DNA of 55,592 nt. Origin: Gammaproteobacteria bacterium. GTDB taxonomy: Bacteria > Pseudomonadota > Gammaproteobacteria > Pseudomonadales > Halieaceae. Of this stretch, positions 3,207 to 55,310 are shown in pieces. A program made the position numbers and the translations under genes. The notes under the pieces were generated by a model. The model was not told the origin of the DNA, ran no database searches, and was given only the letters and a program-made list of their open reading frames with translations. The stretch lies in the NCBI GenBank assembly GCA_030426545.1, contig JAUHYL010000021.1, positions 1 to 55,592 of the forward strand, written 5' to 3'. The number at the start of each line of letters is the position of its first letter. Within the stretch, counting starts at the first letter, position 1.

Positions 3207-3270
3207 CGCCCCTTTTCCGGCCTCGCCAATCCACGCAGACCGCATCCCACCCAATCGCATGGAGAGTCAA

Positions 3271-34673: not shown

Positions 34674-34715
34674 CCCCTGCCCTGTCGAATCAGACAGTAT
34701 ACGGTAGGCGGCTGA

Positions 34716-35492: not shown

Positions 35493-35533
35493 TGGCGTGA
35501 CTCCTTTTCGGATGACGCGGTTTAGCGGGGCGT

Positions 35534-36328
35534 TCAGCAACCCTTCCACTGGGGCGAACGCTTCTGCAGAAACGCGAGCGCGCCCTCAGTGGCATCCTCG
35601 CTGTTAATACAGATGTGCTGTAACTTTGCCTCGGCGGATATCATGTAATCTACCGGTTTCTCAATCGCATCGTTTACCGCCTGTTTAGCATAGCGCAGGG
35701 ACAGCGGCGCGCGCTGTGCCAGTTCGTCCGCCCAGGCCAGGGCTTCGTCCAACAACTTGTCTGCCGGAACCACCCGATTGCACAGCCCCCAATCCAGGCA
35801 CTTCTCGGCACGCAGTTTTTCACCGGTAGCGATAACTTCGTAAGCGCGCTTACGACCCAGGGTGCGCACCAGGTGCCACGTAGCGCCACCATCCGGCACC
35901 AGGCCAATCGCGGCAAACGCCTGGTAGATATAGGCGTCTTCAGCCATCACCGTCAGGTCACAGACCATACCGAAGGCGCTGCCGATGCCGGCGCAGGCGC
36001 CGTTGATCGCGCTGATCCAGGGTTTGCTGCTCTCCTGAATTTCCATCAGCGCGGGCTTGTACTCGTGATTGAGGTGATCCTCGACGCGGAATGTACCGCC
36101 GCCTTCACTGGCGGGCATTTCTTTCAGGTCCGCACCGGCACTGAACGCACGGCCGGCACCGGTTAGGACAGCGACGCGTACGCTGTCGTCGTCATTGACC
36201 TCGCGCACTGCCGATAGAATGTCGCGGCGCAGAGCCGCGTCAAATGCATTGAGCTGGTCGGGTCGGTTCAGACTCACCAGCGCGACGGGGCCGCGGCGTT
36301 CGATGAGTACAGTGTCATAGTCGCTCAT
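35534..36328 (-). CDS. Enoyl-CoA hydratase/isomerase (PaaG/PaaF-like)
   Basis: A 264-residue crotonase. Oxyanion segments are GAGRAFSAGADLKEMPA and INGACAGIGSAFGMVCDLTVM. Neither usual Glu is present: the first position has Ser/Ala and the second reads GLVPDGGATW, with an Asp. The LVPDGG signature is typical of the PaaG group, which shifts double bonds. The AGAGGA box supports the ATG at 36328. It follows the racemase gene by 105 bases and precedes another crotonase, so two crotonases of differing active site stand in tandem. Confidence 0.82.
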   Translation of the reverse strand: MSDYDTVLIERRGPVALVSLNRPDQLNAFDAALRRDILSAVREVNDDDSVRVAVLTGAGRAFSAGADLKEMPASEGGGTFRVEDHLNHEYKPALMEIQESSKPWISAINGACAGIGSAFGMVCDLTVMAEDAYIYQAFAAIGLVPDGGATWHLVRTLGRKRAYEVIATGEKLRAEKCLDWGLCNRVVPADKLLDEALAWADELAQRAPLSLRYAKQAVNDAIEKPVDYMISAEAKLQHICINSEDATEGALAFLQKRSPQWKGC

Positions 36329-36433
36329 TACCGAAAATCCTCTGCTGACCTTAGTGAAAAGTGCGTGAACCAGTTACTGCCGGCGAAGCGACTCCCGTTG
36401 CCGGAGCCGCTAACCGGTGGGCCGCGCGGCCCC

Positions 36434-37555
36434 TCAGGAAACGGCCCCGGAGGAGCGCAGCGCCTGCAGTTCCTGCTCGCCAAAGCCCATGGCAGACAGC
36501 ACGGCGTCAGTATCGGCGCCGGCATCGTGACCGCCATGTGCAACCGCTGAGGGTGTGCGGTTAAACCGTGGCGCGGGCGCAGGCTGCACCATGCCGTCTA
36601 CTTCAATATAGGTGTTGCGGGCCACATTTGCCGGGTGATTGGGCGCATCCATGAAGTTGAGAACAGGCGCAAAGCAGACATCGCTGCCTTCCATCAGCTC
36701 GCACCACTCCGCCTGGGTTTTACCCTTGAAAATTTCAGTGAGGCGCTCCTTGAGTGCCGGCCACAGCGCAGGGTTGTTCTGCTCCCCGAACTCCTCCTCC
36801 GACAGACCGGCCTTTTCCTTCAGCAGGGCATAGAACTGCGGCTCGATCGAGCCGATGGAAATGTACTCGCCGTCTGCGCACTCGTAGGTGTCATAGAAGT
36901 GCGCGCCACCGTCCAACAAATTTGATTCGCGCTCTTTCTCGTTCCACATGCCCATGGCCTGAAAGCCATAGAACATCCACATGAGTTGCGCTGCACCATC
37001 GACCATGGCCGCGTCGATGACCTGGCCCTTGCCCGAATTCGCGGTTTCCAGCAGAGCCGCCAGCACACCGGTAACCAGCAGCATACCGCCACCGCCGAAA
37101 TCGCCAACGAGGTTCAAAGGTGGCACGGGCTTTTCACCCTTGCGGCCAATGCCATACAGGGCGCCAGTGATAGAGATGTAGTTGATATCGTGCCCGGCAG
37201 CCTGCGCCAGCGGGCCGTCCTGCCCCCAGCCGGTCATGCGAGCGAACACCAGCCGCGGATTGCGCTGCAGACAGACATCCGGCCCGATGCCGAGCTTCTC
37301 ACAGACGCCGGGACGGTAGGGATCTATCACCACATCCGCGTTCTCAACCATACGCAGGAACGCCTCGATGCCCGCCGGGTCCTTGAGATTGATGACCACA
37401 GACTTCTTGCCGCGGGAGCTGACATCCTTCATGCCGCCGCTGCCGCGGTCGATGCGAATAACCTCTGCACCCATGTCGGCAAGCACCATGCCGCCCATGG
37501 GCGCCGGGCCAATGCCGGCCAGTTCCAGTACCGTATATCCGTTAAGGGGCCCCAT
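36434..37555 (-). CDS. Alpha-methylacyl-CoA racemase (CaiB/BaiF family)
   Basis: A 373-residue type III CoA-transferase-fold protein that fits the racemase branch. The catalytic residues of Mycobacterium MCR align: His122 in GHDINYISITG (MCR His126), Asp152 in GDFGGGGML (MCR Asp156) and Glu238 in GSIEPQF (MCR Glu241). The Asp of transferases at the equivalent of FRC Asp169 is not needed here. It would interconvert 2R and 2S methyl-branched acyl-CoA, needed before oxidation of isoprenoid, bile acid or sterol side chains. AGGAG precedes ATG 37555. It lies behind an intrinsic terminator that separates it from the SDR gene, so it probably starts its own transcript. Confidence 0.87.
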   Translation of the reverse strand: MGPLNGYTVLELAGIGPAPMGGMVLADMGAEVIRIDRGSGGMKDVSSRGKKSVVINLKDPAGIEAFLRMVENADVVIDPYRPGVCEKLGIGPDVCLQRNPRLVFARMTGWGQDGPLAQAAGHDINYISITGALYGIGRKGEKPVPPLNLVGDFGGGGMLLVTGVLAALLETANSGKGQVIDAAMVDGAAQLMWMFYGFQAMGMWNEKERESNLLDGGAHFYDTYECADGEYISIGSIEPQFYALLKEKAGLSEEEFGEQNNPALWPALKERLTEIFKGKTQAEWCELMEGSDVCFAPVLNFMDAPNHPANVARNTYIEVDGMVQPAPAPRFNRTPSAVAHGGHDAGADTDAVLSAMGFGEQELQALRSSGAVS

Positions 37556-37644
37556 GTGCGCACTCCTGCTTCCGGTTGATCGTTAAACAACTTGCCAGGT
37601 GACAAACTGTTCCAAAAAAGCTGTTTCGGAAAAAACGTTCAGAG

Positions 37645-37672
37645 AAAAAAACGCCGGGAAGAATCCCGGCGT
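37645..37672 (-). terminator. Intrinsic terminator, minus strand
   Basis: A perfect nine-base stem, ACGCCGGGA (37651-37659) and TCCCGGCGT (37664-37672), with a four-base loop. On the minus strand it is followed by a run of seven U (A at 37645-37651 on the plus strand). It lies 17 bases past the stop of the HSD10-like gene and 90 bases before the racemase start, so it ends the dehydrogenase transcript. Confidence 0.9.
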
Positions 37673-37688
37673 CGATCGACTCGCCAAC

Positions 37689-38462
37689 CTATCTCGGCTG
37701 CATGCGAATCGCGCCGTCAAGGCGCACACACTCACCGTTGAGGTAGTCGTTCTCGGCCATAAAGACCGCCAGGTGAGCAATTTCAGCTGCCTTACCCAGA
37801 CGCGGCGGATGCACTACCTGCGCTTCCAGCGCCTTGTACTGCGGCTCCGGCAGCATTGCGAACAATGGCGTATGGATCAGGCCGGGTACGATCGTGTTGA
37901 CCCGTACACCGTAGCTGGCAAGATCGCGCGCCATGGGCAGGGTCATGCCGACCACACCACCCTTGGTCGCAGAATACGCCACCTGGCCGACCTGGCCTTC
38001 ATAGGCAGCAACCGAGGCGGTGTTGATAATGACGCCGCGGCCGCCGTCATCGTTCACCGGGTCATTCTTGGCAATCTGCTCAGCGGCGAATCGCGCCACG
38101 TTGAAGGTACCGGTCAGGTTGATGTCGATCACCGGCTGCCACTGCTCCAGCGGGAAGGGGCCGTTCTTGCCCAGGGTTTTCGCCGCGCTGCCGATTCCGG
38201 CAAAGTTGTTGACGATATGCAGTGCGCCGAATTTCTCGACCACGGCTGCTACCGCTTCTTTGACCGCATTCTCATCGGCGACGTTGACACTCCAGAAAGC
38301 GACCTTGTCGTCACCCAGGTCATCGATGACGGCTTGTGCGCGATCGGCGTTGAGATCAAAAATCGCGACCTTGACGCCCTTGGCGACGTAGGCTTCGACG
38401 GTTGCCTGGCCAAGGCCGGAGGCGCCGCCTGTGACAATTGCTACTTTTCCTTGCAGATCCAT
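37689..38462 (-). CDS. 3-hydroxyacyl-CoA dehydrogenase, SDR type (HSD10-like)
   Basis: A 257-residue short-chain dehydrogenase resembling human HSD17B10. The cofactor loop is TGGASGLG (11-18), and Asp36 after the second strand selects NAD. The catalytic set is Ser150, Tyr163 and Lys167 (YSATK). The insertion NDDGGRGVIINTASVAAYEGQVGQVAYSA region is characteristic of the HSD10 group. It should oxidise a 3-hydroxyacyl-CoA or 2-methyl-3-hydroxyacyl-CoA, and HSD10 also acts on hydroxysteroids. It follows the acyl-CoA dehydrogenase by 63 bases, and its transcript ends at the terminator just downstream. Confidence 0.86.
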   Translation of the reverse strand: MDLQGKVAIVTGGASGLGQATVEAYVAKGVKVAIFDLNADRAQAVIDDLGDDKVAFWSVNVADENAVKEAVAAVVEKFGALHIVNNFAGIGSAAKTLGKNGPFPLEQWQPVIDINLTGTFNVARFAAEQIAKNDPVNDDGGRGVIINTASVAAYEGQVGQVAYSATKGGVVGMTLPMARDLASYGVRVNTIVPGLIHTPLFAMLPEPQYKALEAQVVHPPRLGKAAEIAHLAVFMAENDYLNGECVRLDGAIRMQPR

Positions 38463-38525
38463 GGGTTGTGTCCTCTATGGTTACATCGTTGCTGGAACGG
38501 GTTAATTGATCGGTTCGTTGAATTC

Positions 38526-39701
38526 TCAGAAATTGCGCGTATTGAACGGCACATAGTCATCTGACAGGCACTCACGGCTGATAATGATCTTCATCACCTC
38601 CGAGCTACCGGCATAGATGGTCGAGATTTTCGCGTCGGTATATTGCCTGCTGATGGGGTATTCGTCCATATAGCCGTGGCCACCGTGCAACTGCACGCCC
38701 AACTCGGCCACCCGCACCTGCAACTCGCTGGTAACCAGCTTGGCCTTGGCGGCATCGACCGCCGTCAGCTCACCGGCATTGAAGGACTTCACACACTGAT
38801 CCACGTACACCTGGGCCAGATCCAGCTCGGTGCGCATCTCCGCCAGTTTGAACTGCGTATTCTGAAACGCCGCCAGCGGCTTGCCAAACGCCTTGCGCTC
38901 GCGCACATAGTCCGCAGTAAGGTTCCAGGACAACTGCGCGCCGGCGATATACCCCACAGCGCCCAACAGTCTTTCCTCGGCCAGGCCTTCCATGAGGTAA
39001 ATAAAGCCCTTGCCAGGCTCGCCGAGCACATTCGTCTTGGGGATTTTCACGTCATTGAAGAACAATTCGGCCGTATCCTGGGCCTTCATACCCATCTTCT
39101 TCAGGTTGCGACCACGCTCAAAACCTTCCATGCCTCGCTCCACCAGGAACAGGGTCATGGCGTGAGGGTTGTTCTCCGGGTCCGTCTTGGCCGCCACCAC
39201 CACCACGTCGGCGTTGATGCCGTTGGAGATAAAGGTCTTGGAGCCATTCAATACCCAGTGATCATCCTTTTCCACGGCAGTGGCGCGCATGCCCGCGAGG
39301 TCTGAACCGGCATCCGGCTCTGTCATGGCGATCGCCAGGATGTACTCACCGGTGGCGCACTTGGGCAAAAATCGCGCACATTGCTCTTCGTTGCCAAAGC
39401 GGGTGATATACGGGCCTACCAAGCGACTGTGCAGCGTGTTGAACCAGTCGCCACAGCGGGCGTAGTTGGTTTCCTCGATAATGATTTGTTCGTAGCGGAA
39501 GTCGTACTCGCCCAGACCGCCGTATTTCTCATCCGGCCAGATCATCAGGAAGCCCTTTTCACCGGCTTTGCGGAAGGCCTCGCGGTCGACAATTCCAGCC
39601 TCACGCCAGCCCTCCATATGTGGCACAATCTCTGCGGCGAGAAATTTGCGGTAGGCGTCGCGAAACATCTGCTGTTCCTCGGTGAATTCGCGTTGCAGCA
39701 T
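38526..39701 (-). CDS. Acyl-CoA dehydrogenase (LCAD-like)
   Basis: A 391-residue flavin dehydrogenase of full family length. FAD and substrate signatures are AMTEPDAGSDLAGMRATA, KTFISNGINADV and LHGGHGYMDEYPISRQYTDAKI. The position of MCAD Glu376 reads YAGSSEV and has no Glu, while a Glu lies in the helix G segment GLAEERLLGA. That is how LCAD and isovaleryl-CoA dehydrogenase are built, so long or branched substrates are likely. It would make the 2-enoyl-CoA that the SDR's hydratase partner needs. GGAGG precedes ATG 39701. It is first in its transcript. Confidence 0.87.
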   Translation of the reverse strand: MLQREFTEEQQMFRDAYRKFLAAEIVPHMEGWREAGIVDREAFRKAGEKGFLMIWPDEKYGGLGEYDFRYEQIIIEETNYARCGDWFNTLHSRLVGPYITRFGNEEQCARFLPKCATGEYILAIAMTEPDAGSDLAGMRATAVEKDDHWVLNGSKTFISNGINADVVVVAAKTDPENNPHAMTLFLVERGMEGFERGRNLKKMGMKAQDTAELFFNDVKIPKTNVLGEPGKGFIYLMEGLAEERLLGAVGYIAGAQLSWNLTADYVRERKAFGKPLAAFQNTQFKLAEMRTELDLAQVYVDQCVKSFNAGELTAVDAAKAKLVTSELQVRVAELGVQLHGGHGYMDEYPISRQYTDAKISTIYAGSSEVMKIIISRECLSDDYVPFNTRNF

Positions 39702-41116: not shown

Positions 41117-42130
41117 ATGCGCGACCTGTCCATTTCCGTGCACTTCGTGCGCGCCACTTTGAAACACGCGGTCCGCCGTGGGCTGGACCCTACTGCGCTG
41201 CTGCGTCAGAACCGTATCTCCCCGCGTCTGCTCAAGGAGAGCGACGCGCGCATCTCGATCGAGCGTTATGCCGACCTTCAGGTAAGCACCATGCTGGCCA
41301 TGCAGGACGAGGCCCTGGGGTACTCGAGTCGGCGCATGCCGGTGGGCTGCTGGGCCATGATGTGCCACGCGGTAATGGGCTCGGACACACTGGGACAGGC
41401 CATCAGCCGCTACTGTCGCTTTTTCCAGCTGTTCGAGTTCGATTTCCAGCCCGTGCTGCTCGAGGACGGGGACGAGGCCCGGGTTCGCCTCGAGGCAGTG
41501 GGAGCGGACGATAGCCAGAGCGGCGGCATCGACCCCTTTCTCTCCGAGGTAGTGCTGTTCAACACCCACCGGTTCGCAAGCTGGCTGGTGCAGGAACACC
41601 TGCCTATACAGGTCGTTCAACTCACGTCGCCGCCCTCGGCCGAAGCGCAGGACTATCGCCGGATGTTCCTCGCCAACCCCGTGGAGTTTGAACAGGCACA
41701 GACGCAACTGGTGCTGGCACGCAGTTTACTGGACAAACGCGTGACACAGAGCGAGACCTCCTTGCGCCACTTCCTGCGCCACCCCCTCCTGATCATGCTG
41801 ACGCAGGATTACGCCACCAATAGCTGGACTACCCGTGTTCGTCACATTTTGCGGCGTCGATTGCTGGAAATGCCGGAGCTCAATGATGTAGCGGTGGATC
41901 TGGACATTCACCCTCAAACCCTGCGGCGCAGACTCTCCACTGAGGGAACAACCTTCAAGGAGATCAAAAACCAGGTGCGCAGGGACACCGCACTGCACTT
42001 TCTCGGCAAACAGGGGCTGTCGATTGAAGAAATTGCCCACCGTGCGGGATTCTCCGAATCCAGCGCGTTTATCCGCGCGTTCAAGGGCTGGACGGGTGTG
42101 ACGCCCTACAGCTACCGGAAGGGCCTTTAA
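41117..42130 (+). CDS. AraC-family regulator (OruR-like)
   Basis: A 337-residue regulator with an N-terminal OruR-type ligand domain (about 10-210) and an AraC DNA-binding domain at about 240-335 (LNDVAVDLDIHPQTLRRRLSTEG, then IEEIAHRAGFSESSAFIRAFKGWTG). It begins six bases after the GGDEF gene and lacks a clear ribosome box, so it likely depends on translation of the gene before it. Physical linkage of a membrane GGDEF protein to an AraC factor suggests the two share a signal. Its targets are not shown by this sequence. Confidence 0.83.
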   Translation: MRDLSISVHFVRATLKHAVRRGLDPTALLRQNRISPRLLKESDARISIERYADLQVSTMLAMQDEALGYSSRRMPVGCWAMMCHAVMGSDTLGQAISRYCRFFQLFEFDFQPVLLEDGDEARVRLEAVGADDSQSGGIDPFLSEVVLFNTHRFASWLVQEHLPIQVVQLTSPPSAEAQDYRRMFLANPVEFEQAQTQLVLARSLLDKRVTQSETSLRHFLRHPLLIMLTQDYATNSWTTRVRHILRRRLLEMPELNDVAVDLDIHPQTLRRRLSTEGTTFKEIKNQVRRDTALHFLGKQGLSIEEIAHRAGFSESSAFIRAFKGWTGVTPYSYRKGL

Positions 42131-42269
42131 ACCCACTGGCTGAGCGAATCATCGTCAATCGCAATACAGCGTGTTGTAACAGGACTGCAAAATCCCGGTG
42201 ACCGATTTGGGTCGCGGTCCCGCTTCAACTACACTTCGCTGTCCCACCCCGACCAAAAGGAGTTTTAAG

Positions 42270-45209
42270 GTGCGATCCATCCTGCGCGCCCTGGCCATTG
42301 CCTACGGTGTCTATCTGGCGTTGACTTTATTGATCGTCACCCCGGCGCTGAATCTGCTGCCGGCAAAGTATGTACAGGACAACTACGGCCGCGAACTGCA
42401 GACAGAGTGGGTAGTACTGAACCCCTTCAAGCTGAGCCTCGACCTGAAAAGCCTTGCGCTCAGCGAACCGGACGGCTCGCATTTTTTCGGACTGGGAGAA
42501 AGCTCGGTCAACCTGTCCCTGGCCAGCTTATGGCATCCGGGCGTGGTCTTCGACGAGATACGCGCCCACGATATCGCCGCACACATCGTCCACCTGGGCG
42601 ATGGGCAATTCAACTTCAGCGACCTGATCCCGCCACCAGGCGAGGAACCGGCGGCCGATGAGGAAGAAGAGCCGATGGGTGTCACCGTGCGTCAGCTGGA
42701 CGTGCGCGCCAGTGAACTCGTGCTGGAGGACCGCGGCCGCGAGGAGCCGTACCAGAGCCGCTGGAATGACCTGAACATCGTGGCGCAGGATCTATCCACC
42801 GTGCACACGGAAGGCAAGCCCTACAGTTTTGCCCTGCGCGGGCCCGAAGACGGTAAATTGACCTGGGCGGGTGATGTCTCACTCGCCGCCGGAAACAGTC
42901 GCGGACGACTGACCATCACCGACCTCAGCCTCGCCAACCTGGGTCAGGCGGCGAAGCCCTGGCTACCCCTGCACCTGGCCAGGGGCCGCCTGGGTATCGC
43001 CGGCGACTACGAGATCGACTGGTCCGCAGCACTGCGCTACAGCATCGGCGCGGGCAAGCTCAGCGTCAGCGATCTCGAACTGCTGCCCTACGACCCGCAA
43101 GCGCTGCGCGACACCAGCATTACGCTGAACGCGTTCAGCGTGGACGACATTCGCGTCAGCAGTGAACAGCAGCGGGCGGATGTTGGTGCGGTGACGATCA
43201 ACGGCTTCGCTGCAAACGGCTGGATGGAAGATGAACGCATCAGCCTGATGGAGATGCTCACCGGCCCGGCAGCGGCTGAGGAAGAACCAGCGCCTGCCGA
43301 GGAGACGTCGGAGGACGCCGGTTGGAGCGCCGCTATCGCCAGCGTCAACATCGACGGCAGCGCAGTGAACTTTCGCTCAGCGTTTACTGAACCGGGTTTG
43401 CTGCAGATCAGCCCGATTTCCGCCAGCGTTAAAAACCTGAACTGGCCGCTGCAGGGCGCAAGTCCGGTACAGCTCGCTGTCACCCTCAATGAGCAGGCGG
43501 ACCTCACCGTCGCTGGCAGCCTCAGCCTGGACAGTGGCAGCGGAGAGCTGGATTACTCGCTACAGAACCTCGCCCTGCCCTGGTTCAATCCCAACCTGCC
43601 GGCCGCTCTGAAGGCGACGATAACCGATGGCGCGGTCGCGGTGAAAGGCAGCGCTTCCCTGCAGGAATTTGCACCGGCCACGATCGCGCTGGATGGCGCA
43701 ATCACCGATTTCGCGGTGCAACTGCAGCAGGAACTTGAACAGGGCGAGGGTGAGGAAACGATTCGCAACGGCTGGAAATCGGTGCGCATTGCTGGCCTCG
43801 CTGTTAACACCGTTGACCGCAGCATCGCCTTGAAGCGCATCGCCATCGATGACCTGGTGGGACGGGTGCACATTTTCGCTGACGGCTCTGTCAACGCGTT
43901 GAGCGCCTGGGAGGAGGAAGCCCAGGCTAACGAAGCGTCTGCCGATGAGGCCGGCGCCGCGACCCCGCCTACAGCGGGCGCAGAACAGGACGCCGGCAAC
44001 ACTACCGGGCAGACTGAGCAGCCCGGCGACGGGACAGAAGTCACCGACGCAACTGCGGCAGAAGAAGAGCGGCCATGGTCGATCGATGTGCCCGAGATCA
44101 CGCTGACGGACAGCCAGATCGATTTCATGGATCAGTCACTGCCGATTCATTTTCGCACTGTCATAAGCCAGTTGGACGGCAAAATTCTCGGCCTGGGCAG
44201 CAGCGCCGAGAGCAACGCCACGGTGGACATCAAGGGGTCGGTGGACAACTACTCGCCCGTCACCCTGGCCGGCACGCTCGCTCCGCTGCGTGAGCCACCG
44301 GCGCTGAACCTGGACCTGAAGTTCAAGGGCCTCGACATGGCTCTGCTCAGCCCCTATTCAGCCACCTATGCCGGGCGCAAAATCGAGCGCGGGCTGCTCG
44401 ACCTCGAGCTTGGCTACGCACTGGAGGAAAACCGCCTGAAAGGCAATAACCGCATTCGAATGGATCAGCTCAAACTGGGCGAGCAGATCCAGAGCGACAA
44501 AGCGGTTGATCTGCCGCTGGACTTCGCGGTGGCGGTGATGACCGACTCCAGCGGGGTTATCGATATGAAAGTTCCAGTGAGCGGCAACGTGGATGACCCG
44601 AGCTTCTCCCTGGGCAGCGTCATCGGTACCGCGCTGGTCGGGCTGATTCGGGAGGTGGTAACCGCCCCCTTCAAACTTCTGGCCAACCTCGTGGGCAGCG
44701 ATGCAGACTTCCAGCACATCAACTTTGCCGAGGGATCAGCGCAACTCGACGCCGCCGGGGTCGAAAAGATCACCTCCCTGTCGACCGCCTTGTCACAACG
44801 GCCCAAACTCAAACTCGTGATCGCGGGTTCCGTAGATGCCGAGACAGATCGCTTGCGCCTGCAAAAGAACGCACTGGCCGCAGCACTGATAGAGGATGGA
44901 CTCACCGAAGCCGACGTCAGCTCCAAGGACGAACGCTGGGAGCGCGCGATTGAAAAACGCTTCGACGATTTACCCGCAGCCGGGGAAGATGCAGAAACAC
45001 TCACCATTCGCGACAAATACCTGCAGGTGGCAGCGGCAATCACAATCAGCGACGAGCAATTGCTTGCACTGGCCACGCAGCGCGCTGTGGCAGTGAAAAC
45101 GGCTTTCGTTGAACAGGGCGGCATCGAGGCGGAGCGCGCCGTTGTGGGACAGTCATCGCTGGACGCGGATGACAGCCAGTTTGGTGGGGTTACCCTGGAA
45201 ATCAAGTAA
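42270..45209 (+). CDS. DUF748/AsmA-like envelope protein
   Basis: A 979-residue protein anchored by an N-terminal membrane segment (about 4-28). It continues as a long beta-rich periplasmic region of the DUF748 type, related to AsmA and TamB-like lipid-transfer proteins. Two acidic low-complexity stretches interrupt it (near residues 130-140 and 560-590). The end (FAEGSAQLDAAGVEKITSLS onward) has the OmpA-like pattern found in this family. The start is GTG 42270, placed by AAGGAG; the frame is open 24 codons further up but without a signal. Such proteins probably help lipids across the periplasm. It follows the AraC gene by 139 bases. Confidence 0.83.
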   Translation: MRSILRALAIAYGVYLALTLLIVTPALNLLPAKYVQDNYGRELQTEWVVLNPFKLSLDLKSLALSEPDGSHFFGLGESSVNLSLASLWHPGVVFDEIRAHDIAAHIVHLGDGQFNFSDLIPPPGEEPAADEEEEPMGVTVRQLDVRASELVLEDRGREEPYQSRWNDLNIVAQDLSTVHTEGKPYSFALRGPEDGKLTWAGDVSLAAGNSRGRLTITDLSLANLGQAAKPWLPLHLARGRLGIAGDYEIDWSAALRYSIGAGKLSVSDLELLPYDPQALRDTSITLNAFSVDDIRVSSEQQRADVGAVTINGFAANGWMEDERISLMEMLTGPAAAEEEPAPAEETSEDAGWSAAIASVNIDGSAVNFRSAFTEPGLLQISPISASVKNLNWPLQGASPVQLAVTLNEQADLTVAGSLSLDSGSGELDYSLQNLALPWFNPNLPAALKATITDGAVAVKGSASLQEFAPATIALDGAITDFAVQLQQELEQGEGEETIRNGWKSVRIAGLAVNTVDRSIALKRIAIDDLVGRVHIFADGSVNALSAWEEEAQANEASADEAGAATPPTAGAEQDAGNTTGQTEQPGDGTEVTDATAAEEERPWSIDVPEITLTDSQIDFMDQSLPIHFRTVISQLDGKILGLGSSAESNATVDIKGSVDNYSPVTLAGTLAPLREPPALNLDLKFKGLDMALLSPYSATYAGRKIERGLLDLELGYALEENRLKGNNRIRMDQLKLGEQIQSDKAVDLPLDFAVAVMTDSSGVIDMKVPVSGNVDDPSFSLGSVIGTALVGLIREVVTAPFKLLANLVGSDADFQHINFAEGSAQLDAAGVEKITSLSTALSQRPKLKLVIAGSVDAETDRLRLQKNALAAALIEDGLTEADVSSKDERWERAIEKRFDDLPAAGEDAETLTIRDKYLQVAAAITISDEQLLALATQRAVAVKTAFVEQGGIEAERAVVGQSSLDADDSQFGGVTLEIK

Positions 45210-45281
45210 CCACATCCTGTGCGGCGCTGACAGACAGATCCGGGCTGAGCTGGGCGGCGCGTTAGTCCCTCGTCCCGCCTT

Positions 45282-45800
45282 TCAGCCCGGTGCGTAAATC
45301 AGCAGGCTGTCGCAGTAGCGGCACAGGTACTCGCCGCGCCTGCGCTGCACGCGGTTGTGTCGCGTGGTCGACAACTCGTGCAGGCGACAGTCACAGCGGT
45401 AGGGGTGCGTACGCTGGCGACGCTGGGGGACTCCCTCCAGATCCATATTGAACGTCACACCGGGGTCAGCCCCGAAACAGGTCATGAGGTCGCGCCACTG
45501 CTGGCCGTGGGGTTTGATGCCCTGATCGCCAAACGTGGCATAGATTATGTAGTGGGCCACTTCGTGCGGCACCGTATCGCGCAGGTTTTCCTCGAAGTAC
45601 TTGGCAAATATCCAGGGGTTATAGCGGATTTCGCGCCGCCTGCCGTGCAGCCTGAACATACCCGCAGTCGTGCCGCTTAGATCGAACAGCACCGGGATTC
45701 GCTTGAACCTGCGCTCAAAAATATCCTCCGCCTGCTTAACGAAAAAGTCCGTGTGCGCCAGCACCAACTGGCGCTGGCTGTTTCCGATAGGCTCGATCAT
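45282..45800 (-). CDS. sprT: SprT-family zinc metalloprotein
   Basis: A 172-residue SprT-like protein. The zinc metalloprotease helix is VPHEVAHYIIY (HEVAH), with a third ligand His in KPHGQQWRDLM. A C-terminal zinc ribbon is formed by YRCDC and LCRYC. Bacterial SprT is a predicted DNA-protein or protein quality-control metallopeptidase; no substrate is established. ATG 45800 matches the family N-terminus; the frame extends upstream to 46028 but that part has no similarity and contains a long hairpin. It is transcribed away from the ACAD10/11-like operon. Confidence 0.88.
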   Translation of the reverse strand: MIEPIGNSQRQLVLAHTDFFVKQAEDIFERRFKRIPVLFDLSGTTAGMFRLHGRRREIRYNPWIFAKYFEENLRDTVPHEVAHYIIYATFGDQGIKPHGQQWRDLMTCFGADPGVTFNMDLEGVPQRRQRTHPYRCDCRLHELSTTRHNRVQRRRGEYLCRYCDSLLIYAPG

Positions 45801-46174
45801 ATTGCGCCTGTCTCCCCTGGCTGGCTCTCCTGCTGTCTCGATTGCATCTGCTGCCCGTGCGGGCACGATCTGCCGGCTGGACGCGCCTGCGCTCAAGCAC
45901 GGGCGCGTCCAGCCGGATCCGACGCAGGTGAAGCTCGCGTACCCCCGAGAGCCTGCTACAATTCCAACAGCCAACGCAGCATAGCCCCTGGCATCGAGCG
46001 ACTCAATAACGGGCATTAATCGGCCCACGCTCAGGTACAGTCGGCGCCTTCCGGCGCAGGACCCCTGTCAGTTCCGGTACATAAATTTGTTGCGATCTGC
46101 CATTGTCCGCGGCACACCCAGCCTCCAGACTCTGGCTCGTTTTATTTTGTCGCAGGAGCAGTGCAGAAGACACC
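45801..46174. other. 374-base divergent intergenic region, no gene
   Basis: The gap between sprT (-) and the kinase gene (+) holds no convincing coding frame. It must contain both promoters. Its main landmark is a 15-base-pair stem at 45873-45916. The plus side near 46080-46150 is richer in A/T (ATAAATTTGTTG, TTTTATTTTG) and is the likeliest place for the operon promoter, though I see no clear -35/-10 pair. Confidence 0.45.
45873..45916. repeat. Long perfect hairpin, 15-bp stem
   Basis: CCGGCTGGACGCGCC (45873-45887) pairs perfectly with GGCGCGTCCAGCCGG (45902-45916) across 14 bases, and TGC/GCA in the loop could extend the stem with a small bulge. There is no T-run on either strand. It could be a leader structure of sprT, a site for a large dimeric regulator, or a solitary palindromic repeat. 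Confidence 0.55.
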
Positions 46175-47203
46175 ATGAGCACGCAAGAACTCGATACCAG
46201 CACACTCAGTGACTATCTCCAACAGCAGATTCCCGGGTTCGCAGGCCCGCTGACTGCCGAGAAGTTTCCCGGCGGCCAGTCCAATCCCACCTTCAAGCTG
46301 ACCGCTGGCGAAGGCGACGCCAGGCAGCACTACGTACTGCGCCGCAAGCCACCGGGTGAACTGCTTAAGTCTGCCCATGCGGTGGACCGCGAGTACCGCG
46401 TTATCACCGCACTGGAAGAGACCGAGGTGCCGGTGCCCAAAACCTACGTGCTGTGCGAGGACGAAGCCGTTATCGGCTCCATGTTCTACGTGATGGAATA
46501 CAAGGAAGGGCGCATCCTGTGGGATCCGCTGCTACCGGAAGCCGCGGACAACGCTGAACGCAGCGCCATCTACGACGCCATGAACAAGACCATGGCCGCG
46601 CTGCACAACGTCGATGTCGACAGTGTCGGCCTGTCCGATTACGGCAAGCCCGGCAACTACTTCGAGCGCCAGCTCAGCCGCTGGAGCAAGCAGTACCGCG
46701 CCTCTGAAACCGAGCGCATAGAGGATATGGAAACCCTGATGACCTGGCTGGAAAAAAACATGCCCGAGGATGACGGCACCGTCAGCCTGGTACATGGCGA
46801 TTACCGCCTGGACAACATGATGTTCCACCAGGACAAACCCGAGGTGATCGCCCTGCTCGACTGGGAACTGTCCACACTGGGCCACCCGCTGGCAGACCTC
46901 GCCAACCAGTGTATGGCCTGGATGCTGCCCCGCGACGGCCGCATCATGGGTCTGGCGGGTGTGAACCGCGCGGACTACGGCATTCCCAGCGACGAGGACT
47001 ACATCGCCCGATACTGCGAACGCACCGGCCGCGACAGTATCGCCAACTGGAATTTTTACCTGGTGTTTTCCCTGTTTCGCCTGGCGGCGATTATCCAGGG
47101 CATCGTCAAACGCGCACAGATTGGCACCGCCTCCAGCTCCGAGGCCCACTCCAGCACCGAAGGTGTGCGCGGGCTCGCCAGTCTGGGCGTTGCACATCTC
47201 TGA
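46175..47203 (+). CDS. ACAD10/ACAD11-type phosphotransferase (APH fold)
   Basis: A 342-residue kinase-fold protein that matches the N-terminal APH domain of animal ACAD10 and ACAD11: YVLRRKPPGELLKSAHAVDREYRV at about 53-76, catalytic HGDYRLDN (His207, Asp209, Asn214) and the Mg-binding LLDWELSTLGHPLADLA (Asp229). In animals this domain is known to phosphorylate the hydroxyl of 4-hydroxyacyl-CoA. Bacterial LvaA does the like in levulinate breakdown. ATG 46175 is chosen over the upstream frame. It opens an operon with crotonase, thiolase, a small protein and the ACAD10/11-type dehydrogenase. Confidence 0.87.
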   Translation: MSTQELDTSTLSDYLQQQIPGFAGPLTAEKFPGGQSNPTFKLTAGEGDARQHYVLRRKPPGELLKSAHAVDREYRVITALEETEVPVPKTYVLCEDEAVIGSMFYVMEYKEGRILWDPLLPEAADNAERSAIYDAMNKTMAALHNVDVDSVGLSDYGKPGNYFERQLSRWSKQYRASETERIEDMETLMTWLEKNMPEDDGTVSLVHGDYRLDNMMFHQDKPEVIALLDWELSTLGHPLADLANQCMAWMLPRDGRIMGLAGVNRADYGIPSDEDYIARYCERTGRDSIANWNFYLVFSLFRLAAIIQGIVKRAQIGTASSSEAHSSTEGVRGLASLGVAHL

Positions 47204-47248
47204 TTCGACCCGTTCCCCCCACTCACCCAGATCAAAGAGGACACAACC

Positions 47249-48013
47249 ATGGCAGATGAAGTACTGGTAGACGTAGCCGACGGCATCATGACCGTTACCC
47301 TGAACCGCCCCGAGGCCAAGAACGCGGCCAACAAGGCGCTGGCCGAGGGCGTGGCCGCGGCCATGGATGAATTGGACAGCAACGATGACGTGCGCGTTGC
47401 CATTCTTACCGGCGCCGGCGGCACCTTCTGTTCCGGCATGGATCTGAAAGCCTTTGTCTCAGGCGAAACACCGCAAATTGAAGGCCGCGGGTTTGCCGGC
47501 CTCACCGAAAAAGGCCCGCGCAAGCCGCTGATCGGCGCGATTGAGGGCTATGCGCTGGCCGGAGGCCTCGAGGTGGCGATTTCCTGCGACCTGCTGGTTG
47601 CAGCGGACAACGCCAAGTTCGGCATTCCGGAAACCAAGCGTGGCCTCGCCGCTGCGGCAGGTGGCCTGATGAAACTTCCGCGCCAGATTGCACCGCGCAT
47701 CGCCATGGAACTGGCACTCACCGGTGAATTTATCGACGCGCAGCGCGCGCTGGAAATCGGCCTGATCAACCAGGTCGTTGCTGCCGGCACCGCGTTGGAT
47801 GCAGCGAAGGAACTGGCGGCCAAGATCGTCGCCAACGGGCCGCTGGCCGTGGCGGTGAGCAAGCAGGTGATACTCGAATCCGCCAACTGGTCCGAAGCGG
47901 AGATGTGGAAGAAGCAGGGCGAGCTCGTGATGCCGGTGTTTGGCAGCGAGGACGCTATCGAGGGCGCGACCGCCTTCGCCGAAAAACGCGCACCGAACTG
48001 GAAAGGCAAATAG
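47249..48013 (+). CDS. Enoyl-CoA hydratase
   Basis: A 254-residue crotonase with both catalytic Glu (Glu108 in LAGGLEVAIS, Glu128 in GIPETKRGL), so it should hydrate 2-enoyl-CoA to 3-hydroxyacyl-CoA. Oxyanion segments are GAGGTFCSGMDLKAF and IEGYALAGGLE. AAAGAGG lies ahead of the ATG. It is 45 bases after the kinase and 30 before the thiolase. In the ACAD10/11 route a hydratase must rehydrate the enoyl-CoA that forms after phosphate elimination, and this gene is well placed for it. Confidence 0.86.
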   Translation: MADEVLVDVADGIMTVTLNRPEAKNAANKALAEGVAAAMDELDSNDDVRVAILTGAGGTFCSGMDLKAFVSGETPQIEGRGFAGLTEKGPRKPLIGAIEGYALAGGLEVAISCDLLVAADNAKFGIPETKRGLAAAAGGLMKLPRQIAPRIAMELALTGEFIDAQRALEIGLINQVVAAGTALDAAKELAAKIVANGPLAVAVSKQVILESANWSEAEMWKKQGELVMPVFGSEDAIEGATAFAEKRAPNWKGK

Positions 48014-48043
48014 GCCGCTAACAGACACAAAGGGAGAGTCACA

Positions 48044-49279
48044 ATGTCAGAAGCATGGATTATCGATCACTGTCGCACCCCACGGGGCATTGGTAAAAAA
48101 GGCAAGGGGTCCCTCGCCGACCAGCACCCGCAACATCTGGGAGCCACGGTGCTCAAAGCCATCGCCGAACGCAATGACCTTAACACCGCCGATGTCGACG
48201 ACGTAATCTTCGGCACCAGTTCGCAGCGTGGCCGCCAATCCGGCGACCTCGCGCGTATGGCGGCGCTGGAAGCGGGTTACGACATCCGCTCCAGCGGTGT
48301 GACCCTGGATCGCTTTTGCGGCTCGGGTATCACTTCAGTCAATCTCGCCGCGATGAGCATCATGTCCGGTACCGAGGACCTGGTAATCGGCGGCGGCGCC
48401 GAAATGATGTCGGTCTACGGCGAAGAAGGGGCAGCCATGAGCCCACTCATGGACAACGGCAACCTGGTACTGCGCGAGATGCACCCGCAGCCTCACCAGG
48501 GCCTGTGTGCCGATGCGATTGCCACCCTGGAGGGCATAGAGCGCGAAGCGCTGGACGCGCTGGCGCTGGTTTCGCAGCAACGCGCGGCCCATGCCATCGA
48601 GAACGGCCACTTCGCCAACAGCCTGGTGCCGGTGTACTCCACCGATGGCACACTGGCACTGGATCACGAGGAATTTCCCCGCCCGCAGACCACCGCCGAG
48701 GCGCTCGCTGAACTGCAACCCTCCTTCGGCGCTCTGGCTGACTACCCCCTCGACGAGGCAGGCACCACCTACCGTTCACTGATACTGAAAAAGTACCCTG
48801 GACTGGACATCACGCACGTACACCATGCCGGTAATTCCTCGGGCGTCGTCGACGGCGCCGGCGCCGTACTGCTGGCCTCTCCCGAGTACGCCAAAGCCAA
48901 CGGCCTGAAGCCGCGGGCGCGGGTGCGCGCCATGTGCAACATGGGCGACTGCCCTACCCTGATGCTGAATGCGCCGGTCCCGGCAGCCAGGAAGGTGTTG
49001 GACAAGGCCGGCCTGAGCGTGAATGACATCGACCTGTTCGAAATCAATGAGGCCTTTGCCGTGGTCGCGGAAAAGTTCATTCGCGACCTTGACCTCGATC
49101 GTGACAAGGTCAATGTCAACGGCGGCGCCATGGCGCTGGGCCACCCGATTGGCGCTACCGGCTCACTGTTGATTGGCACGGTACTGGACGAGCTGGAACG
49201 CCGCGACCAGACGCTGGGCCTGATCACCATGTGTGCGGCGGGCGGCATGGCTCCTGCTATCGTGATCGAGCGCATCTAG
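48044..49279 (+). CDS. Acetyl-CoA C-acyltransferase (thiolase)
   Basis: A 411-residue thiolase with all active-site parts: nucleophile Cys92 in LDRFCGSGI, EINEAFAVV, His in GGAMALGHPIGATG and the terminal Cys in ITMCAAGGMAP. It would release acetyl-CoA or propionyl-CoA from a 3-ketoacyl-CoA. GGGAGAG precedes the ATG. It follows the hydratase by 30 bases. Unlike the two Ltp-type proteins near 13-15 kb it keeps its catalytic triad, so it is the working thiolase of this operon. Confidence 0.88.
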   Translation: MSEAWIIDHCRTPRGIGKKGKGSLADQHPQHLGATVLKAIAERNDLNTADVDDVIFGTSSQRGRQSGDLARMAALEAGYDIRSSGVTLDRFCGSGITSVNLAAMSIMSGTEDLVIGGGAEMMSVYGEEGAAMSPLMDNGNLVLREMHPQPHQGLCADAIATLEGIEREALDALALVSQQRAAHAIENGHFANSLVPVYSTDGTLALDHEEFPRPQTTAEALAELQPSFGALADYPLDEAGTTYRSLILKKYPGLDITHVHHAGNSSGVVDGAGAVLLASPEYAKANGLKPRARVRAMCNMGDCPTLMLNAPVPAARKVLDKAGLSVNDIDLFEINEAFAVVAEKFIRDLDLDRDKVNVNGGAMALGHPIGATGSLLIGTVLDELERRDQTLGLITMCAAGGMAPAIVIERI

Positions 49280-49359
49280 AGCCGCCTGTGACTGTCGGAG
49301 GCAAAGCTGACTGTTAGCGCCAGCGCAGCACCGGCCAGCACCCGCGTGAGGGGGTACTG

Positions 49360-49701
49360 ATGGGTGCTGCCCTCCATTCACTGCTGTTGGGGCTGGCCGC
49401 ACTGATGGCAGGGGTGCGCCTCTTCGATCAGTCCCAGGCCCTTTATATACGGGCTCTCAATGCACAGCCTGAGGGTATTGGCCTGTGCCGGGTGTATGTC
49501 GGCCTGGCACATACCGAGTTTCACCGCGGCCATTTCCTGAACTCCAGACACTACGCCAAACTGTGCCTTGAACTGATGGCCGAGGGCGCGGTGGACGAAC
49601 AGGAGCCCAAAGCGCTGCAGTTACTGGAAAAGGCCAGCGGCTACTACGAAGCCGCGGCCGATGAAGCGCGCAACGCAAGGCGCCGTGACCTGCCGCAGTA
49701 G
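49360..49701 (+). CDS. Small hypothetical protein, TPR-like
   Basis: A 113-residue protein without a recognised family. Residues 3-19 are hydrophobic. After that, alternating helices with small and aromatic residues (QALYIRALNAQPEGIGLCRVYVGLAHTEF, then HYAKLCLELMAEGAVDEQEPKALQLLEKASGYYEAA in pieces) look like two or three tetratricopeptide-type helical hairpins. GAGGGGG about five bases before ATG 49360 supports translation. It sits between thiolase and dehydrogenase, 80 and 73 bases from each. The antisense frame over it has no ribosome site. Confidence 0.5.
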   Translation: MGAALHSLLLGLAALMAGVRLFDQSQALYIRALNAQPEGIGLCRVYVGLAHTEFHRGHFLNSRHYAKLCLELMAEGAVDEQEPKALQLLEKASGYYEAAADEARNARRRDLPQ

Positions 49702-49774
49702 CACCCCGATACAGACCGCCAGGCGTTGGCACCGCCACACGCGGCGTAGATTCATATGACCGGAGACCCACCCC

Positions 49775-50998
49775 ATGCTTGAGTTCAGTGAACAATCACG
49801 CAGATACCAGGAACAGCTATCGGCGTTCATGGACGAGCATATCTACCCGAACGAGCAAGCCTACGCGCGCCAGTTGCACGACGCAGCCGACCGACACAGC
49901 TACCTGCCGCTGATGGACGAACTCAAGAAAAAGGCGCAGGCAGCCGGATTGTGGAACCTGTTCATTCCGCCCTCACTGGCAGAGTTTGCCGACCACGACG
50001 GCATGAGCAACCTCGACTACGCCCCGCTGGCAGAAATGATGGGGCGGGTACTGTGGTCGCCGGAGGTATTCAACTGCAACGCGCCGGACACCGGGAACAT
50101 GGAAGTGTTCATGAAGTATGGCACCCCCGCCCAGCAGGCGCAGTGGCTGACGCCATTGCTCAACGGTGATATCCGTTCCTCTTACGCCATGACCGAGCCC
50201 CAGGTCGCCTCGTCGGATGCCACCAACATCGAACTCAGTATCCAGCGAGACGGGGATGAATGGCTGCTCAATGGGCGCAAATGGTTCATCACCGGCGCGC
50301 TGTATGAGCGCTGCGGGATTTTCATCGTCATGGGCAAGTCGGATCCGGACAATCCCAATCGCCACCAGCAACAGACCCAGGTGCTGGTGCCCAAAGACAC
50401 TCCCGGGGTAACACTGATCAGGCCGCTGACCACGCTCGGTTACGATGACGCGCCTATCGGGCACGCGGAAATGCTGTTCGACAACGTTCGCGTCCCCCTG
50501 GACAACGTGCTGCTGGGCGAGGGACGCGGCTTCGAGATCGCCCAGGGGCGTCTTGGCCCCGGACGCATCCACCACTGCATGCGCCTGATCGGCTCTGCGC
50601 AACGCGCGCTGGAGCTGGCGTGCGAGCGCGTGGAGTCGCGCTCTACCTTCGGCCGCACCCTGAGTCAGCACCAGTCAGTGCGCGAGGATATCGCGCGCAG
50701 CTTCTCCGAAATCGAGATGATGCGTCTGTTGGTTTACAAGACCTGCGCGCGAATGGATGCGGTGGGCGCCAAGGAAGCCATGGATCTGATCGCTGCCAGC
50801 AAAACCAGCATCCCGCTGATGGCGCAGACCGTCATCGACCGCTGCATGCAGATGCACGGCGCCGGCGGTCTAACCGAGGATTACCCGATGGCGGAGGCGT
50901 TCAACTACGCGCGTTGGTGCCGCCAGGCAGACGGGCCGGATCAGGTACACCTGATGGCCCTGGGGAAACAGGTCATTCGGCGCTACGCCGGGAGCTGA
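49775..50998 (+). CDS. Acyl-CoA dehydrogenase, ACAD10/ACAD11 type
   Basis: A 407-residue acyl-CoA dehydrogenase that resembles the C-terminal domain of ACAD11: NAPDTGNMEVFMKYG (102-116), MTEPQVASSDATNIELS (139-155), GRGFEIAQGRLGPGRIHHCM (250-269). The MCAD Glu376 position reads ADGPDQVH with Asp386, as in ACAD10/11 rather than YEGT. Animal ACAD10/11 uses this domain to eliminate phosphate from a 4-phosphoacyl-CoA. With the kinase at 46175 the complete pair is present as separate genes. GGAG precedes ATG 49775. It converges on the M48 gene with 13 bases between. Confidence 0.88.
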   Translation: MLEFSEQSRRYQEQLSAFMDEHIYPNEQAYARQLHDAADRHSYLPLMDELKKKAQAAGLWNLFIPPSLAEFADHDGMSNLDYAPLAEMMGRVLWSPEVFNCNAPDTGNMEVFMKYGTPAQQAQWLTPLLNGDIRSSYAMTEPQVASSDATNIELSIQRDGDEWLLNGRKWFITGALYERCGIFIVMGKSDPDNPNRHQQQTQVLVPKDTPGVTLIRPLTTLGYDDAPIGHAEMLFDNVRVPLDNVLLGEGRGFEIAQGRLGPGRIHHCMRLIGSAQRALELACERVESRSTFGRTLSQHQSVREDIARSFSEIEMMRLLVYKTCARMDAVGAKEAMDLIAASKTSIPLMAQTVIDRCMQMHGAGGLTEDYPMAEAFNYARWCRQADGPDQVHLMALGKQVIRRYAGS

Positions 50999-53030: not shown

Positions 53031-53891
53031 ATGACAGCAAAGGTAAGAATCGATTTTATGGTGGCCGGCTTCGCCAAATGCGGCACCACCTCCGTTTGCG
53101 CTGCACTGGCCAGGCATCCGGATATCTTCATGTCGGATGTAAAGGAGCCGCGCTACTTTTCCAGCCGCGAGTTTGACCAGCGGCATCGCTACTACGAAAA
53201 GCTGTATGAAAACGCAAAGCCGGGACAGAAGCTGGGGGATGGCAGTCCTTCCTACAGCGGCGCTGCCAATGCCGAGGTGTCGATACAGCGGATCAAGGCA
53301 AACAACTCCGATTGTCGTTTCATCCTTATTGCGCGTAATCCGCGCAAACGCATCGAGTCGTTCTACCGCGAACTGCACCACAGTGCGTCGCGCTGGGGCG
53401 TGCTGCCACCCTTTGCAATGCAGGACTTCCTCGAGGCGCACCCCGACGCCTGGGAAAACGCAATGTTCTACGACCGGGCCGACGCCTTCATACAGGCCTT
53501 CGGAGCTGATGCAGTGTTGCCAATCCTGTTGGAGGACTTTCGCGCCGACAGCGAAGGTGTGCTGCGCAGCTGCTGCGAACACATCGGCGTCGATCCGGCA
53601 CGACTCCCTCCCCCCGAGGCAGTACACCTGAATGTCGGTACGGAGAAATATCACGATACGCAGTTTCTGCGCTGGTTGAAGCGCAGCCGTCCTATCCGGC
53701 GTACGATTACGCGCATGCCCCTGCAACGACAGAACAACGTACTGGGTGCCTTGAGACTGAGGGTGCCCTTTGGCGACAAACCCCTGCCGTGGGATGAACC
53801 GTCAGAACAGCTCTACAGGGATCGGGTGGTACCGCAGGCACGCCGGTTTCTAGAACTGTGCGGGAAACCGGCGGACTACTGGCAGTTATAG
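53031..53891 (+). CDS. PAPS-dependent sulfotransferase
   Basis: A 286-residue sulfotransferase. The 5-prime phosphosulfate loop is GFAKCGTTSVCAALARHP (about 13-30) with the KEPRYF motif after it, and the 3-prime phosphate binder is FILIARNPRKRIESFY (about 97-112). It would move sulfate from PAPS to a hydroxyl or amine; carbohydrates, polyketides and fatty alcohols are known acceptors for bacterial members. No PAPS-making or export gene is nearby. A gap of 261 bases separates it from the YbjQ set, and AGGA lies about ten bases before the ATG. Confidence 0.85.
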   Translation: MTAKVRIDFMVAGFAKCGTTSVCAALARHPDIFMSDVKEPRYFSSREFDQRHRYYEKLYENAKPGQKLGDGSPSYSGAANAEVSIQRIKANNSDCRFILIARNPRKRIESFYRELHHSASRWGVLPPFAMQDFLEAHPDAWENAMFYDRADAFIQAFGADAVLPILLEDFRADSEGVLRSCCEHIGVDPARLPPPEAVHLNVGTEKYHDTQFLRWLKRSRPIRRTITRMPLQRQNNVLGALRLRVPFGDKPLPWDEPSEQLYRDRVVPQARRFLELCGKPADYWQL

Positions 53892-54107: not shown

Positions 54108-55310
54108 TCAGGCCGGCACAGCCGTAGTCTGTTGCTGTCCGTATTTCCGCACGATGGCATCGCGCTGGTCAGGATCAATGTTCACCTTGCTCAGGTCACC
54201 CTGGATGTGCGGCAGTTCCAGCAGGCGCCGGTCCATCACGCGATACCAGAGCCAGGGTATGTAGGCCAGCAGGTACATGCCGTAGTAACCGTTGGGCAAC
54301 TGCGGCAGGCCGTCGAAGTTGCGCAGGCTCTGGTAGCGACGCGTGGGATTCGCGTGGTGATCGGAGTGGCGCTCCAGGTGGAACAACACGAGATTGCTGA
54401 AAATGTAATTGGCGTTCCAGCTGTGGTGCGGCTGACAGCGCTCGTAGCGGCCGCTGGCCTCCTTCTCACGCAGCAGACCGTAGTGCTCAATGTAGTTGGC
54501 GCTGGTGAGCTGAAACCACGCCCAGAAGTTATGCAGGGCCAGGAAGGGAAGCATGATCCAGCCGAAAGCGATAATCAGCCCGCCCTGCAACACCGCACTG
54601 ATGGCGAACGACTGCAGAATATCGTTGTGCACACTCCACACAGACTTGTTCTGCCGCGCCAGGCGCTCTTTCTCCACCGCCCAGCCGCGCCGGAAAGCAC
54701 CGGGAATTTCGCGCAGCACAAATTTGTAGATGGATTCACCCATGCGCGAGCTGGCAGGATCTTCCGGGGTGGCAACGTCCTTGTGATGGCCGCGATTGTG
54801 TTCAATGCAGAAGTGTCCGTACGTCGGCACTGCCAGGACAATCTTTGCCAGCAGGCGTTCAAACTCGGGCTTCTTGTGGCCGAGCTCATGCGCCGTGTTA
54901 ATACCCAGACCACTGTAGCTGCCCGCGGTAATCGCCAGCACCAGCACCGACCAGACGGTCAGCGGCTGAGTGCCTACAAACCAGGCGATGGCGATCAACA
55001 CAATGAAATGCATGGGAATCGTGAACCAGGTCAGCAGGCGATAATAGCGATCCTCCTCCAGCTGCGGCACGATCTCCTCGGGCGGGTTGTTTTCGTCGGC
55101 ACCGATCACGTAGTCCAGCAGGGGGATAACAAAATAGGAAAACAGCAGTGGGATCGCCAGTGCCCACTGGGTATCGAATGCGAAGTACAAAAAGATACCC
55201 AGCATCGGGAACAGTGGCATGAACAGCGAGGACATCCACAGGTAACGCTTGCGGTCACGGTATTCGATGCGTCCCTTTTCGGGGTGGTCCAGCACGTAGG
55301 TGGTCGTCAT
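54108..55310 (-). CDS. alkB: Alkane 1-monooxygenase
   Basis: A 400-residue integral-membrane non-heme diiron hydroxylase, the size usual for AlkB. The His clusters are AHELGH (His141, His145), EHNRGHH (His171, His175, His176) and LERHSDHHA (His315, His318, His319), with the further His276 in NYIEHYGLL. Six membrane segments can be placed, at about 26-44, 50-68, 95-112, 118-137, 235-254 and 258-270. It turns n-alkanes to 1-alkanols using electrons from rubredoxin, encoded just downstream. A divergent AraC-type gene begins across a 120-base gap. Chain-length preference cannot be fixed by eye. Confidence 0.95.
   Translation of the reverse strand: MTTTYVLDHPEKGRIEYRDRKRYLWMSSLFMPLFPMLGIFLYFAFDTQWALAIPLLFSYFVIPLLDYVIGADENNPPEEIVPQLEEDRYYRLLTWFTIPMHFIVLIAIAWFVGTQPLTVWSVLVLAITAGSYSGLGINTAHELGHKKPEFERLLAKIVLAVPTYGHFCIEHNRGHHKDVATPEDPASSRMGESIYKFVLREIPGAFRRGWAVEKERLARQNKSVWSVHNDILQSFAISAVLQGGLIIAFGWIMLPFLALHNFWAWFQLTSANYIEHYGLLREKEASGRYERCQPHHSWNANYIFSNLVLFHLERHSDHHANPTRRYQSLRNFDGLPQLPNGYYGMYLLAYIPWLWYRVMDRRLLELPHIQGDLSKVNIDPDQRDAIVRKYGQQQTTAVPA

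Follow-up and report, generated by a model that had tools for sequence, protein, structure and literature searches.

What does a bacterium do with counterparts of the two halves of mammalian ACAD11, encoded as the first and last genes of a single run with genes for a hydratase and a thiolase between them? The run lies at positions 46175-50998 of the forward strand of what we call the window, the whole stretch of DNA analysed, which is the 55,592-nucleotide contig JAUHYL010000021.1 (C137 in our numbering, 1-55592) of a Halieaceae gammaproteobacterium (assembly GCA_030426545.1; 4.35 Mb in 141 contigs). Its five co-directional open reading frames (ORFs), separated by gaps of 45, 30, 80, and 73 nt in that order, begin with a kinase gene and end with a gene for an acyl-CoA dehydrogenase (ACAD), as the initial annotation had described. 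Comparison with characterized proteins makes it highly probable that the run encodes an entry module through which 4-hydroxyacyl-CoA would be brought into beta-oxidation. A pattern scan found no terminator-like or promoter-like sites on the plus strand within the run, which as a scan is no proof of a single transcript. The five genes are as follows.

46175..47203, +, APH/PKL-fold kinase, homologue of the ACAD10/11 kinase domain with a role like that of LvaA of Pseudomonas putida, predicted 4-hydroxyacyl-CoA kinase (PF01636, mouse ACAD11 kinase half, 3dxp)
47249..48013, +, enoyl-CoA hydratase of the crotonase family, NCBIfam PRK08252 (NF006100, two Glu)
48044..49279, +, thiolase, NCBIfam PRK06025, acetyl-CoA C-acetyltransferase (NF004682, intact residues)
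49360..49701, +, 113-aa ORF, lineage-specific (no Pfam or NCBIfam match)
49775..50998, +, ACAD10/11-type (LvaC-type) acyl-CoA dehydrogenase homologue, predicted to convert 4-phosphoacyl-CoA to 2-enoyl-CoA by phosphate elimination (ACAD11 structures, residues)

Kinase and dehydrogenase as the two halves of ACAD11

Both outer proteins match their half of ACAD11 over nearly its full length and keep the diagnostic residues, which bears out the earlier proposal that they represent the two halves of ACAD10/11. The kinase, assigned to the Pfam family APH (PF01636, E = 6.9e-54, in a scan from a longer TTG start at 46103), aligns over residues 5-339 with residues 16-350 of mouse ACAD11 in a PDB search (8v3v, E = 3.5e-83, 282.6 bits), in which 3dxp scores 404.5 bits, and carries GGQSNPTF at 33, HGDYRLDN at 207-214 (D209 and N214), and DWEL at 229. 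The ACAD, with Pfam matches to Acyl-CoA_dh_1, Acyl-CoA_dh_M, and Acyl-CoA_dh_N, aligns in the same kind of search over residues 6-402 with mouse ACAD11 372-768 (8v3u, E = 3.3e-116); its top matches (mouse ACAD11 8v3u/8v3v, 4hr3, and human ACAD11 2wbi) score 382-392 bits, and the next ACAD 132.5 bits. Among its residues are R259, HCMR at 267-270, D386, and an APDTGN motif at 103 that aligns with APDTGN of the mouse protein and includes P104, which we take to be the counterpart of human ACAD11 Pro463. Read off the alignments, mouse ACAD11 R626, H634, R637, and D753 correspond to R259, H267, R270, and D386 of the ACAD, and D220 and N225 of the mouse kinase half to D209 and N214 of the kinase. Mutants of mouse ACAD11 identified R626, H634, R637, and D753 of the dehydrogenase half and D220 of the kinase half as important, and modelling implicated N225 (PMC12440821). 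The expanded active-site motif of the ACAD10/11 type is reported to have a conserved proline, Pro463 in human ACAD11, and in the same work each half of ACAD10 could be exchanged in vitro for a separate bacterial orthologue; the ACAD10 reaction required no electron acceptor (PMC11342911).

The ACAD of the run is very probably of the phosphate-eliminating kind. That it is instead an ordinary FAD-dependent enzyme of beta-oxidation, next to a kinase acting on something unrelated, appears extremely unlikely to us: an ACAD, a hydratase, and a thiolase do make up the usual beta-oxidation set, but this ACAD shares the catalytic Asp, the Arg (R259), and HCMR with ACAD10/11, a set that three ordinary ACADs encoded elsewhere in the genome lack in an alignment, and the kinase matches the kinase half of ACAD11.

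Under the proposed scheme, the kinase would use ATP to phosphorylate the 4-hydroxyl of 4-hydroxyacyl-CoA, and the ACAD10/11-type enzyme would eliminate the phosphate to yield trans-2-enoyl-CoA, with FAD cycling inside the reaction and no drain to electron-transferring flavoprotein; we infer these two steps because tested homologues, namely ACAD10/11 and bacterial orthologues, perform them. The neighbouring hydratase would then convert trans-2-enoyl-CoA to 3-hydroxyacyl-CoA, which a FadB-like 3-hydroxyacyl-CoA dehydrogenase encoded elsewhere would oxidize, and the neighbouring thiolase would release acetyl-CoA.

For the hydratase and the thiolase, we infer these roles from family and linkage only. 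The hydratase matches Pfam ECH_1 (E = 1.7e-54) and NF006100 (390.7 bits versus a cut-off of 282), with the EchA19 model second and under its own cut-off; the thiolase matches Thiolase_N (E = 6.7e-47), Thiolase_C (E = 8.6e-43), and NF004682 (752.9 bits versus a cut-off of 568). The two Glu residues and the intact thiolase that had been read between the halves are indeed present: E108 and E128, presumably the catalytic Glu positions of crotonases, and C92, N335, H367, and C397, which we take to be the nucleophile, the Asn of NEAF, the His of GHP, and the second catalytic Cys.

A probable entry module rather than a complete route

The initial annotation went further and saw in the run an entire route from 4-hydroxyacyl-CoA to acetyl- or propionyl-CoA, a reading that we reject. 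The path from a 4-hydroxy acid requires a CoA ligase, and also a 3-hydroxyacyl-CoA dehydrogenase between hydratase and thiolase; Pfam searches found neither among the five genes. The run therefore falls short of a complete route by one step inside the route as the initial annotation drew it, and by the activating ligase ahead of it. PF02737 matches the genome seven times, in each case on another contig than that of the run; four of the matches are strong, in frames of 679-774 residues that are FadB-like by size. The ligase found beside the kinase in relatives has its closest match in this genome at C96:11557-13230, with 60% identity.

Gene linkage across the family

Is the gene order of the run peculiar to one genome? 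We compared 100 Halieaceae genomes that are at least 85% complete, 16 in the genus of the window and 84 outside it. The kinase cut-off (E <= 1e-100) admits three partial matches (G059, G069, and G082) as well as G005, which has a 57% copy only; ACAD rows extend down to 617 bits, the linkage count adding one row of G040 at 556 bits; the thiolase cut-off was E <= 1e-185; and short contigs can hide gene links in these counts. A kinase match is present in 91 of the genomes, an ACAD orthologue scoring 617 bits or more in 90, and both in 84. The kinase-ACAD gene order is beyond chance, because the starts of the two orthologues lie no more than 4 kb apart in 15 of the 16 genomes of the genus (the kinase match of the 16th is partial, apparently cut by a contig end).

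Within 6 kb, kinase and thiolase are linked in 34 of the 100 genomes, ACAD and thiolase in 27, kinase and ACAD in 22, and all three in 19; outside the genus, kinase-thiolase links number 19 and ACAD-thiolase links 11. For a genome of some 4 Mb, we estimate that random placement would bring a given pair of genes so near to each other well under 1% of the time. The association of hydratase and thiolase with the kinase-ACAD pair, as first proposed, thus recurs in part of the family and does not extend to all of it. An apparent stop interrupts the ACAD gene in G082 and in G089; the one in G082 was rejected, since the gene has a normal end in L083, taken as the same contig from agreeing coordinates.

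Named records supplied 78 kinase loci (L009-L086), 10 of which could not be judged for downstream genes. Thirty have the order kinase-hydratase-thiolase, followed by the ACAD in 14, and two have only the hydratase downstream of the kinase. All 74 loci that cover the catalytic motif of the kinase keep it, the other four being partial. Of 28 ACADs scoring above 300 bits in these loci, 26 show every residue of the pattern and have a kinase no more than 6 kb away; one of the other two, in L021, is cut off, and the other, in L057 (Candidatus Litorirhabdus singularis, with the order AMP-ligase, ACAD, kinase, hydratase, thiolase), has DGS for DGP and keeps the Asp. In 23 loci the kinase has a divergent AMP-ligase gene 125-237 nt upstream, and in 3 more an AMP-ligase gene is upstream of an ACAD-kinase pair, which places a ligase beside the kinase or the pair in 26 of the 78. 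Because links in varied combinations recur across the family loci, the ligase, kinase, ACAD, hydratase, and thiolase behave as a module, with parts that come together in some genera and lie apart in others. Kinase and ACAD genes also adjoin in Alteromonas, in Pseudomaricurvus, and in a Ruegeria plasmid record (LysR, kinase, ACAD) whose ACAD has HCMR and the Asp motif, all of which speaks further against a kinase unrelated to its ACAD neighbour.

Evidence against a dedicated module

Several observations weigh against the proposed entry module. Of the 84 genomes outside the genus, only 7 (6 without the added G040 row) link kinase and ACAD, one of them through second copies, and the 77 unlinked genomes, some of which lack one gene or are fragmented, would suit an ordinary ACAD as well. 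In the whole sample, a thiolase passes the cut-off in 38 genomes that show none of the three links, and a further 19 lack both a passing thiolase and any link. Among the 78 loci from named records, the kinase is not directly followed by a hydratase or a thiolase in 36, 10 of which have an ACAD within 2 kb upstream of it (L058, whose genes overlap, is counted as lacking the ACAD that it has upstream). Within the genome studied, three other ACAD10/11-type proteins are encoded on contigs without a kinase match. Finally, the genome holds 17 thiolase-matching stretches, counted as about 13 genes, and 55 ACAD matches, so the hydratase and thiolase of the run need not be dedicated to it.

Part of this evidence would fit an arrangement in which kinase and ACAD form a functional pair and the hydratase and thiolase are bystanders belonging to another pathway, as the many thiolase genes and the 36 loci would allow. 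We consider this unlikely. In 6 of the 84 genomes outside the genus, ACAD-thiolase linkage is the only link, with the kinase elsewhere; because the thiolase is linked to either half, be it the kinase or the ACAD, mere hitch-hiking is hard to uphold.

Comparison with known systems

The module proposed here resembles mammalian ACAD10/ACAD11 in that both proteins align with the ACAD11 halves and retain the catalytic and phosphate-binding residues. It differs in being split into two genes with hydratase and thiolase genes between them, and the HAD domain of ACAD10 has no counterpart. Split bacterial genes are themselves established, in the lva operon and in tested Burkholderia orthologues. The P. 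putida operon is described as comprising lvaA (kinase), lvaB, lvaC (ACAD), lvaD (short-chain dehydrogenase/reductase, SDR), and lvaE (ligase), and its homologues are described in Alpha-, Beta-, and Gammaproteobacteria (PMC6692424). Like the run studied here, it keeps kinase and ACAD in separate genes of a single run, with the same chemistry expected of both systems (PMC6692424, PMC11342911, PMC12440821). The run studied here differs by its added hydratase and thiolase genes and by having no counterpart of the LvaD reductase or the LvaE ligase among the five genes of 46175-50998; an SDR gene at 37689-38462 is on the strand opposite to the run, in a separate cluster. The Burkholderia orthologues of LvaA and LvaC, likewise a separate kinase and ACAD and from another organism, are reported to lie nearer to ACAD10 than LvaA and LvaC of P. 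putida do and to be active on 4-hydroxyhexanoyl-CoA (PMC11342911).

A plasmid cluster of Azoarcus sp. KH32C (L101: ligase, thiolase, histidine phosphatase, kinase, SDR, ACAD) also combines, in one run with a thiolase, a kinase (57%) and an ACAD (50%) that has HCMR and the Asp motif; it differs by its own histidine phosphatase, AMP-ligase, and second ACAD, and no hydratase is annotated in it. Histidine phosphatase genes stand beside the ACAD-kinase pair or in the same run at L065:6045-6725 and L101:5306-5974 (PF00300), and, by similarity, in L067 and L068; P. citronellolis LA18T is likewise described with a histidine phosphatase in such a run (PMC6692424). Among the open-licence matches listed, no title or abstract describes a bacterial kinase-hydratase-thiolase-ACAD cluster. 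The chemistry itself is not new; the hydratase and thiolase genes between the halves are a small departure from the known arrangement, one that the genus shares.

Is the run then the local equivalent of lva, a pathway for levulinate and 4-hydroxyvalerate, with the 113-aa ORF in the place of LvaB? LvaB is a 12-kDa P. putida protein reported to bind LvaA and to be required for growth on levulinate (PMC6692424). The 113-aa ORF is near it in size and directly upstream of the ACAD gene, a place that resembles that of PP_2792, between lvaA (PP_2791) and lvaC (PP_2793), if PP_2792 is lvaB, as we suppose. The parallel is positional, drawn from place and size. Opposed to it are the lack of an SDR and a ligase in the run, the presence of the ORF in 3 of the 100 family genomes as against 91 with a kinase match, and the main text of the Burkholderia paper, which does not name LvaB (PMC11342911). 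We therefore hold an lva equivalent to be very unlikely, if not quite as remote as an ordinary ACAD.

The ORF itself is probably a real gene, because its two other copies, 39% and 51% identical to that of the window, keep an open frame. All three copies belong to one genus and stand just upstream of the ACAD; as a required part of the cluster, the ORF is rejected on account of this narrow distribution. Pfam and NCBIfam gave no match at E <= 0.001, and the best hit of a PDB search had E = 0.33; by eye only, the protein looks TPR-like.

Paralogues and neighbouring genes

Two further adjacent pairs of kinase and ACAD10/11-type genes are found in the genome, at C28:15867-18031 (L094) and C123:28662-30868 (L096). 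They have HHATR and HHAMR, respectively, in place of HHCMR, and their kinases are 34% identical to that of the window. The three ACADs on contigs without a kinase match are the following.

C139:9683-10858 (L093), lone ACAD10/11-type ACAD, HCMR kept, adjoining an AMP-ligase and genes read as TonB receptors
C119:21642-22808 (L095), lone ACAD10/11-type ACAD, HCMR kept
C131:10086-11276 (L092), lone ACAD10/11-type ACAD, without HCMR, reading QYAMG

This set of paralogues suggests either several hydroxyacyl-CoA substrates or kinases that are shared.

The genes neighbouring the run give no firm hint to its natural substrate, for which the initial annotation suggested lactone-derived or gamma-hydroxylated lipids as candidates. 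Upstream of the kinase, 41117-46028 encodes an AraC regulator, a DUF748 protein, and a SprT-like protein, in an order that recurs in many related loci and is apparently unrelated to the pathway. An opposite-strand cluster at 32125-39701 (-) comprises an AraC regulator, a carboxyltransferase, two crotonases, a CoA-transferase III, a FabG-like SDR, and an acyl-CoA dehydrogenase. Also near the run are a sulfotransferase gene at 53031-53891 (+) and a gene at 54108-55310 (-) for a protein of the fatty-acid-desaturase family, AlkB-like by eye; the opposite end of the window has another thiolase-like gene, at 3259-4452 (+), with two matching stretches at 3289-4446.

Significance

The chemistry of ACAD10/11 was assigned in papers of 2024 and 2025 (PMC11342911, PMC12440821). 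The run has the two halves in separate, tractable form, next to a hydratase and a thiolase, and so offers a simple system to test a phosphate-eliminating ACAD, and this gene set helps to define a bacterial version of the breakdown of 4-hydroxy fatty acids by ACAD10/11. The cluster could also help to find which 4-hydroxy acids marine bacteria use in nature. Tentatively, and with odds that we place below even, kinase-dependent degradation of 4-hydroxyacyl-CoA may be close to a core trait of the family, carried by interchangeable modules that form one operon in some genera, with the pairs on C28 and C123 acting on other hydroxyacyl-CoAs. If this is true, 4-hydroxy acids, for example from lactones or oxidized lipids, would be a common marine carbon source.

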